64,000 bases of DNA. It comes from Corallococcus soli. Its GTDB lineage: Bacteria; Myxococcota; Myxococcia; Myxococcales; Myxococcaceae. The notes beneath the pieces are model-generated. The model saw nothing but the letters and a program-made list of their open reading frames with translations. It had not been told where the DNA came from and searched no databases. This document shows, piece after piece, positions 14,670 to 16,996 of this stretch. The position numbers and the translations under genes are program-made. Each line of letters opens with the position of its first letter. Position 1 is the first letter of the stretch. The DNA is taken from NCBI RefSeq assembly GCF_014930455.1, contig NZ_JAAIYO010000002.1:434001-498000 (forward strand). Reading direction: 5' to 3'.

Positions 14670-15287
14670 ATGCGTCATCTGTTCCGTATCGCGGGCGTGT
14701 TCGCTGTTTCGTCGCTGTGGGCCACCCCGGCCTTCGCCACCAGCACGGGCATCACCGGCCAGTCCGGCAAGGACGGCGTGATGTGCAGCACGTGTCACAA
14801 GGGTGGGGATGTCCCCACCGTCGTGTTGGAAGGCCCCACGACGCTGGAGCCGGGCGCCACCGGCCAGTACACCTTCATCATCCGGGGGGGAGCGGCGAAG
14901 ACGGGTGGGGCGGACATCGCGGTGGACAGCGCGGACGCGAAGCTCCAGGCCGGCACCGGGACGAAGCTGCTGGGCGCGGAGCTGGTCCATTCCGCGCCGC
15001 TGGCCTTCACGGGAAACGAGCTGCGCTTCAACTTCTCCCTCGTCGCGCCTGCGACGGATGTCACGCTCAAGCTCTTCGGGGCCGGCAACTCCTCCAACGC
15101 GGACCAGAAGAGTGACGGGGACCGCGCGGCGGCCACGACGCTGAGCGTGACGGTGGGCAAGGGCACGCCCGTCGTGGACCCGCTCCCGCCGGAGGGCGAC
15201 GAGGGGGGCTGCTCCGCCGCGGGCAGCGCGCCCGTGTGGGGCCTGGCGCTGGCCGGGCTGGCCCTGCTGCGCCGCCGCCGGAGCTGA
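14670..15287 (+). CDS. MYXO-CTERM protein with a CxxCH haem-type motif
   Basis: The 205-residue protein has a signal peptide (cut near AFA-TSTG). MCSTCHKGG around residues 35-43 is a potential c-type haem attachment site. A beta-sandwich-like domain follows (GATGQYTFIIRGG), and the end is EGGCSAAG, a hydrophobic helix and RRRRS, the MYXO-CTERM surface anchor. It resembles the MXAN_6652-type proteins that I recall in Myxococcus. It lies 110 bases after the Fur-controlled lipoprotein in the same direction and is probably co-transcribed through the hairpin. I infer surface electron transfer or haem-iron binding. GGAGA lies five bases before the ATG at 14670. Confidence 0.75.
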   Translation: MRHLFRIAGVFAVSSLWATPAFATSTGITGQSGKDGVMCSTCHKGGDVPTVVLEGPTTLEPGATGQYTFIIRGGAAKTGGADIAVDSADAKLQAGTGTKLLGAELVHSAPLAFTGNELRFNFSLVAPATDVTLKLFGAGNSSNADQKSDGDRAAATTLSVTVGKGTPVVDPLPPEGDEGGCSAAGSAPVWGLALAGLALLRRRRS

Positions 15288-15354: not shown

Positions 15355-15812
15355 TCAACCCGAGACGGGGTCCACCGCCGTGTCGAAGAACGACACGTTG
15401 CCTTCCACGGTGCCAATCCCGCGCGCCGTCAGTCCCAGGATCAGCGTCTGGAGATACATCCCCACGCCCACCGCGTCCACGAGCCCCAGGTCCCGGTGCA
15501 TGCACAGGATGCCGGCCGTCGGCGCGCCGAAGAATTCGTAGTTGCGCTGAGCCGCCCGCGCCCTCCCGGCCTCATCGTCCCGGGCCACCCCCATCGCTCC
15601 GTAGACGAGCGCCCCCAGCTCCCGGCGGTGCGCCCGGAAGGAGGCGGGCAGCGGCGCCAGCTCCCTCGGATTCGAATGCACCTCTTGTCGCAGCGCCTCC
15701 CGCAGGCGCTTCATGCGTTCGCCTTCCACGATGAACAGACGCCAGGGTTGGATGTTTGAGTTGGAGGGCGCGAGCTGCGCGAGTGACAGCGCCTCCGCGA
15801 GCAGCCCGCGAG
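15355..15812 (-). pseudogene. Nitroreductase remnant lacking both ends
   Basis: The minus strand encodes a stretch that is clearly nitroreductase: LLAEALSLAQLAPSNSNIQPW, then FFGAPTAGILCMHRDLGL and VGVGMYLQTLILGLTARGIGT. These proteins are usually about 220 residues and begin with an Arg-rich FMN-binding segment. Here only about 150 residues remain. The N-terminal 30 or so residues and the start codon are missing upstream of about 15812, where the frame runs into antisense sequence of another gene fragment. The C-terminal third, including the last FMN-contact region, is replaced by a short tail and TGA at 15355. FMN-dependent activity is unlikely. Confidence 0.7.
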
Positions 15813-16131
15813 CAACATCAACAATGGCAACACCGGCGGCCACCCGCCCGGGCCCCAGGGGGCCTGCACCCTCAGCAGCTGTGACTACTTCTACTTCCAT
15901 GGCATCAGCAAGTATGCCTTTGGCGCCATGTGGGAGAACAACGGGACGGCCAGCCGCTTCCACTCTCCCCATCAGGTGCAGGTGGAGTTCCTCTGCGACG
16001 TGGCGGACCAGTCGCAGTGGTGGATTCCGTTGAGCGTGCGGCAGACCGCCGCGGCGGACGCCAACGGCCGCGCCGTGTCGCGCTTCATCAACGGCCCGGG
16101 GTATAGCTGCGGCAGCCCCCGTCCCTGGTAG
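15787..16131 (+). pseudogene. 3' fragment of a secreted-protein gene
   Basis: A frame open from 15787 encodes about 107 residues from roughly 15811: SNINNGNTGG, a Cys-containing segment (CTLSSCDYFYFHG), FGAMWENNGTASRF, VEFLCDVADQSQWWIPL and an end YSCGSPRPW. It reads like a genuine extracellular protein with paired cysteines. It has no start codon or signal peptide; the first ATG (15928) falls inside the conserved-looking part. Its 5' end coincides with the point where the divergent nitroreductase loses its own 5' end. I do not recognise the family. Confidence 0.55.
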
Positions 16132-16297
16132 ACGCGAGCAACCCCGATGGCGCATTCGGAGCGTGAAGCCATGACGCCGTTTCGGATGCGCCTGTCTCCC
16201 TGCCTGAGCCCGCTCGCGCGGGTCTGCTGTTCCAGTTCCCAGCCACGTCCTCTTCGACCACGACCTCCTGGCCCGGGCGCCGTGACTTTCGTGTTGA

Positions 16298-16996
16298 ATG
16301 GGCTTCGTGCCCCCGAACCGACTCGACGCCCTGGGTGAAGCGACGACCCTCCTAGAACTCCGCGCACGTCTGCGCTCGCATCGCTGGGCGCCGGAACTCG
16401 ACGCCTTCGAGCGCGCTCCCGGTGCTGTGCGGCTCCTCGCCGCGGGCCTTGATGCTCCAGAAGAAATCGACACGGGGAACGGCCCCTACGTCGTCCTGGT
16501 GGAGGGCCCGCTCAGGACGACAGGCCATCTGCACCTGTGGACGGACGACTATCAGCCCGGCCTCGTGATCGTCCGGGGCGACCTGGAAGCGCGGACCCTG
16601 TCGTTCGGCAACGGGGCGCGGGTCTTCGTGGAAGGCTCGGTGCGCGTGGAGGGAGAACTCTTCGGCCAGTATGGGGACCACAATGCCGTCCTCATGGCCG
16701 CAGGAGAAATCCGGGCGAGGGCCATCTTCCTGGAGACGACCGCCGGGGTGTACGCCGAGGGCGGTGTCCAGTCCCTGATCCATGCGCCGCTGCGCATGTA
16801 TGAATCACTCGCGCCAGACATCGAGAACGAAGGGGTCGGGGATGGGGTCCACAGCTTCGATCCGGCGGTGCTGGATGCCTATGGCGACCTCGACTTCCGC
16901 AAGGCGATCCAGGCCGCGCGTGAAGGCCGGCCCCTGCTCCTGCCCGGCATTGAAGAGCGCTTCCCCCTCCGACTGACGCTCCGCGCAACGCGGTAG
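16298..16996 (+). CDS. Beta-helix-like (polymer-forming/bactofilin-like) hypothetical protein
   Basis: The 232-residue product has no signal peptide. After a helical N-terminus (about 1-65) comes a run of short beta-strands with regular Gly and Val spacing: VIVRGDLEARTLSFGNGARVFVEGSVRVEGEL and AAGEIRARAIFLETTAGVYAEGG. This looks like a short right-handed beta-helix as in polymer-forming cytoskeletal (bactofilin) proteins. The C-terminus is helical. I cannot place it in a named family; bactofilin relationship is a structural guess. The preceding 166 bases (16132-16297) show nothing clear. Confidence 0.55.
   Translation: MGFVPPNRLDALGEATTLLELRARLRSHRWAPELDAFERAPGAVRLLAAGLDAPEEIDTGNGPYVVLVEGPLRTTGHLHLWTDDYQPGLVIVRGDLEARTLSFGNGARVFVEGSVRVEGELFGQYGDHNAVLMAAGEIRARAIFLETTAGVYAEGGVQSLIHAPLRMYESLAPDIENEGVGDGVHSFDPAVLDAYGDLDFRKAIQAAREGRPLLLPGIEERFPLRLTLRATR

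Follow-up and report, generated by a model that had tools for sequence, protein, structure and literature searches.

The window analysed here is a stretch of 64,000 nucleotides from the soil bacterium Corallococcus soli (GCF_014930455.1, contig NZ_JAAIYO010000002.1, positions 434,001–498,000). Between two intact genes, it contains the remnants of a nitroreductase, of a secreted protein and of a Kelch-repeat protein, separated or interrupted by three junctions:

14670–15287, plus strand: MYXO-CTERM protein of the MXAN_6652 family, intact left neighbour
15355–15812, minus strand: nitroreductase-family remnant, lacking its N-terminus and 49 internal residues but retaining its own C-terminus and stop codon
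15409–15411: junction 1, a 147-base in-frame deletion relative to the G015 genome, with a two-base (GG) overlap between its sides
15812–15813: junction 2, a deletion of 1838 bases relative to G015, with zero shared bases at the joint
15813–16131, plus strand: C-terminal tail of a secreted protein, about 106 of 287 residues
16132–16245, plus strand: N-terminal stump of a Kelch-repeat protein with, as judged by eye, a lipoprotein-like signal region (residues 25–62 at 63% identity)
16245–16281: junction 3, where the Kelch body is gone and about 25–35 bases have no clear match in relatives
16298–16996, plus strand: 232-residue protein without a family match, intact right neighbour

The genome (G000) is 9.44 Mb in size, in 68 contigs, and is scored as 99.99% complete; the three junctions all lie inside a single contig of 1.08 Mb. 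A query of the region finds a match somewhere in each of the 16 genomes of the genus, the window's own included. The neighbourhood on both flanks of the scar is common to three relatives within the genus, G011, G015 and G008, which, going by the pairing of handles and names, appear to correspond to the Myxococcaceae MAG PMG_225, Corallococcus terminator CA054A and C. praedator CA031B, respectively. The neighbourhood is on one contig in G011 and on two contigs each in G015 and G008, with the break inside the Kelch gene.

At the main joint, the leftward nitroreductase homology starts at ..RGLLAEALSLAQ.. just inside position 15812 and runs to its stop codon at 15355. The rightward tail extends from ..NINNGNTGGH.. 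to ..GSPRPW* and aligns to residues 182–287 of a 287-residue protein, beginning at 15813. The two homologies thus abut exactly at 15812|15813, in agreement with an earlier note on this DNA, which had described a nitroreductase starting abruptly near 15812, a rightward tail without start or signal near 15811, and gaps meeting within about ten bases. DNA alignment shows that G015, in which both genes are intact, has 1838 extra bases at this very point and is collinear with the window on either side of them (window 15409–15816 matches locus L036 of G015 at 94.6%, and 15813–16243 at 91.0%). The extra DNA to be expected opposite a deletion scar is therefore present in a collinear relative. The intact genes in G015 are:

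L036 2776–3489, minus strand: nitroreductase with a full domain
L036 3772–4641, plus strand: 289-residue HEAT-like gene
L036 4674–5537, plus strand: 287-residue gene bearing a HEGWH motif

The DNA missing from the window comprises the N-terminus of the nitroreductase, the divergent intergenic region, the complete 289-residue gene and approximately the first 181 of the 287 residues of the secreted protein. The earlier note had proposed a single deletion that took the starts of two divergent genes, and had predicted an intact divergent pair in relatives with some 100–500 additional bases. A single deletion of both starts is what the alignment indicates, and the arrangement and the exact point are found in G015, where both genes share the neighbourhood; however, the deletion is of 1838 bases, and the divergent partner of the nitroreductase is the 289-residue gene, the secreted protein being encoded second in the same direction.

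Both the nitroreductase remnant and the intact G015 copy match Pfam family PF00881, but whereas the latter covers the whole profile (positions 1–167 of 167), the former covers positions 18–138, without the N-terminus and with 49 residues absent internally, and does not constitute a full domain. About 36 residues of the 237-residue frame compared have been lost from the front, although the exact start is uncertain and the loss may be smaller. At junction 1, the 147 missing bases correspond to 49 codons, removed in frame and without a frameshift, and the final 17 residues and the stop codon are the counterparts of those of G015. The C-terminal third that the earlier note believed lost is thus in place, and loss of the C-terminus by drift is ruled out; the second event it had suspected in this gene is a single in-frame step of 147 bases.

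Nitroreductase matches at E ≤ 1e-10 are present in three of the 16 genus genomes, one of them a distant match of 37%, and G015 is the sole member of the genus with the gene at the same place. At E ≤ 1e-20, matches are found in 11 of the 96 family genomes; six of these, from two other genera, are 82–86% identical. Five of the six were aligned and all carry the N-terminal and internal blocks absent here; the sixth, from G020, is matched over residues 31–232 of 237 and was left out of the alignment. Gene content at the nitroreductase slot differs across the genus. In G011 (L037 7632–8156) and in G008 (L038 2319–2837), the slot is taken by another reading frame, one that no Pfam family matches. 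G009 has the same left neighbour, and other genes separate it from a beta-helix gene; a search of that gap for remnants of the cluster found none, the lowest E-value with a cluster protein being 0.44.

The 287-residue protein is matched in 16 of the 96 family genomes searched. Fifteen of these, ten from the genus, have it at full length, and the window's genome alone has it short; relatives sharing the same short genes, which would have spoken against a deletion, are thus absent. These 15 genomes also have the 289-residue protein, its match lying 35–48 bases from that of the 287-residue protein in every one; the window's genome gives no match to it (25 of 31 candidates scored). Of the 287-residue protein, this genome has the tail alone, with no match to its front elsewhere. 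A HEGWH motif of the HExxH type occurs in all ten aligned 287-residue sequences, which are full-length or nearly so, and lies before the break. The tail itself (15813–16131) has no Pfam match.

Downstream, a Kelch-repeat gene follows the intact 287-residue gene in all ten genus loci, the G015 and G008 copies being split by contig ends; this third lesion, a truncated Kelch gene, had been missed by the earlier note. A Kelch query against the window's genome returns seven matches, five of which are paralogue stretches at 33–38% identity and two of which lie at the stump. A beta-helix gene is located between the Kelch gene and the 232-residue gene in G015 and G008, and between the Kelch gene and a trypsin-like gene in G011; it is absent at junction 3 in the window. 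An 86% identical copy is present on another contig of the same genome (G000 C14 198217–200256; L105 8209–10260). The gene on C14 gives matches of about 2.0 kb to G006, G009, G010 and G002 and of about 1.6 kb to G008, G011, G015 and G003, all at 87–89% identity. Given this copy, the idea that a deletion of some 3 kb at junction 3 had also taken the beta-helix gene was dropped: the gene may have moved or may have sat elsewhere, so loss of the Kelch body alone is claimed. That the missing DNA is absent from the rest of the genome holds for the 289-residue gene, with 25 of 31 candidates scored, the front of the 287-residue gene and the Kelch body, but not for the beta-helix gene.

Judged from these comparisons, the short state is the derived one, because all but one of the 16 genomes matching the 287-residue protein have it at full length and the five aligned nitroreductase orthologues hold the missing blocks. 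The joint is almost certainly a deletion scar within a decaying Corallococcus locus, and the locus is a case of ordinary gene loss and decay. The ancestor would have had a leftward nitroreductase gene and a divergent, rightward cluster of three genes, encoding the 289-residue HEAT-like protein, the 287-residue secreted HEGWH protein and the Kelch-repeat protein. As the comparison shows, one deletion of about 1.84 kb took the start of the nitroreductase, the divergent intergenic region, probably with a promoter in it, the leading gene of the cluster in its entirety and roughly the first 63% of the second. It shows two further lesions, with no order implied: 147 bases were removed in frame from the nitroreductase gene, and the Kelch body was lost. 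With three lesions inside 0.9 kb, both the conserved HEAT-like/HExxH/Kelch cluster and its divergent neighbour are destroyed, and none of the remnants is expected to yield a working protein.

The two exact joints have 0 and 2 shared bases, which would fit illegitimate end joining without homology, followed by neutral decay. Ku-dependent end joining as the cause is not supported, since a match to the Ku family PF02735 is lacking in the window's genome; in the control, the search found the gene in one of 14 known genomes, that of Bacillus subtilis.

A variant of this history, rather than an alternative to it, is that a single complex rearrangement made all three junctions together. Three joints within 0.9 kb would suit such an event, as would the unmatched bases at junction 3 and the coincidence of that junction with a beta-helix gene found here on C14. 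However, the pieces between the joints retain their ancestral order and orientation, and separate deletions, striking a locus that was already dead, account for the data just as simply; we consider the variant unlikely. That selection favoured loss of the cluster, for instance as a costly uncharacterised secreted system, with three lesions accumulating before the remnants drifted, is improbable.

Returning to deletion and decay, the age of the loss may be gauged from substitutions. Measured against G015, the nitroreductase remnant has a dN/dS of 0.33 and the tail one of 0.17, compared with 0.37, 0.31 and 0.29 for three intact neighbours. The tail gives 0.29 against G008 and 0.28 against G011, and pairs of intact relatives give 0.17, 0.18 and 0.29 over the same stretch. 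The ratio is thus not raised in the remnants, and neither a stop codon nor a frameshift has yet appeared. The frames are still open and the rates resemble those of intact genes, which, on small numbers, points to a loss that is probably recent compared with the divergence from G015. By branch, the synonymous and nonsynonymous changes in the tail are 3 and 3 for the window, 5 and 1 for G015, 3 and 2 for G008, and 6 and 6 for G011, with ten columns ambiguous. The window-lineage changes R193P and N235H affect residues identical in the ten other aligned sequences, and G204S affects a position that is glycine in eight of those ten; three changes are too few to test.

Open frames and ordinary rates fit a recent event but would also be compatible with retained function; by themselves, the rates are no proof that the remnants are dead. 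That the short frames encode shortened yet functional proteins under selection, to which the in-frame nature of the 147-base deletion might also point, is nevertheless very hard to reconcile with what has been removed. The tail has no start of its own, no signal peptide and no HEGWH motif, the nitroreductase is missing both its N-terminus and a conserved block of 49 residues, and two of the three replacements in the tail are at invariant residues.

An assembly error, in which two places were wrongly joined and the 1.8 kb in between dropped, is just as improbable: the genome is in 68 contigs, and the contig breaks inside the Kelch gene in G015 and G008 indicate that the region can be difficult to assemble, but there are three distinct junctions within one contig, a genome scored as nearly complete yields neither the 289-residue gene, with 25 of 31 candidates scored, nor the first part of the 287-residue one at any other place, and the tail shows changes peculiar to it at positions that are otherwise conserved.

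The deletion and decay proposed here resemble the loss of bacterial pseudogenes by deletion (for example, The Extinction Dynamics of Bacterial Pseudogenes, PMC2916853), in that one lineage is truncated while its relatives are intact. The present locus differs in that two divergent stumps share one joint and the remnants have rates like those of intact genes. It provides a clean and apparently recent case of deletion-driven gene loss in a myxobacterium with a large genome, and calls for caution in annotation, as gene callers may call two false short genes at the locus.

The locus also draws attention to two neighbouring genes that have no family name, one of which encodes the HEGWH motif. Neither the 289-residue nor the 287-residue protein comes near a Pfam cut-off or is matched in NCBIfam; for the latter, the Pfam search gave one hit below the cut-off (E 0.53) and the PDB sequence search none. 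The labels "HEAT-like" and "HExxH-type" were assigned by inspection, and on the strength of the motif the intact 287-residue relatives are at most candidate HExxH-type zinc metalloproteases. An AlphaFold2 model of the 287-residue protein has a mean pLDDT of 38.8, which is unusably poor. In the named collection, a Kelch gene lies downstream of the pair in eight of 11 loci, in two of which a contig end interrupts it; among the three loci lacking it, L079 ends too early to judge. The two genes are adjacent in all 11 loci (L079, L080 and L083 among them), with the HEAT-like member just upstream each time, and the pair occurs not only in myxobacteria but also in two MAGs of other groups, one from Acidobacteria and one from Methylococcaceae.
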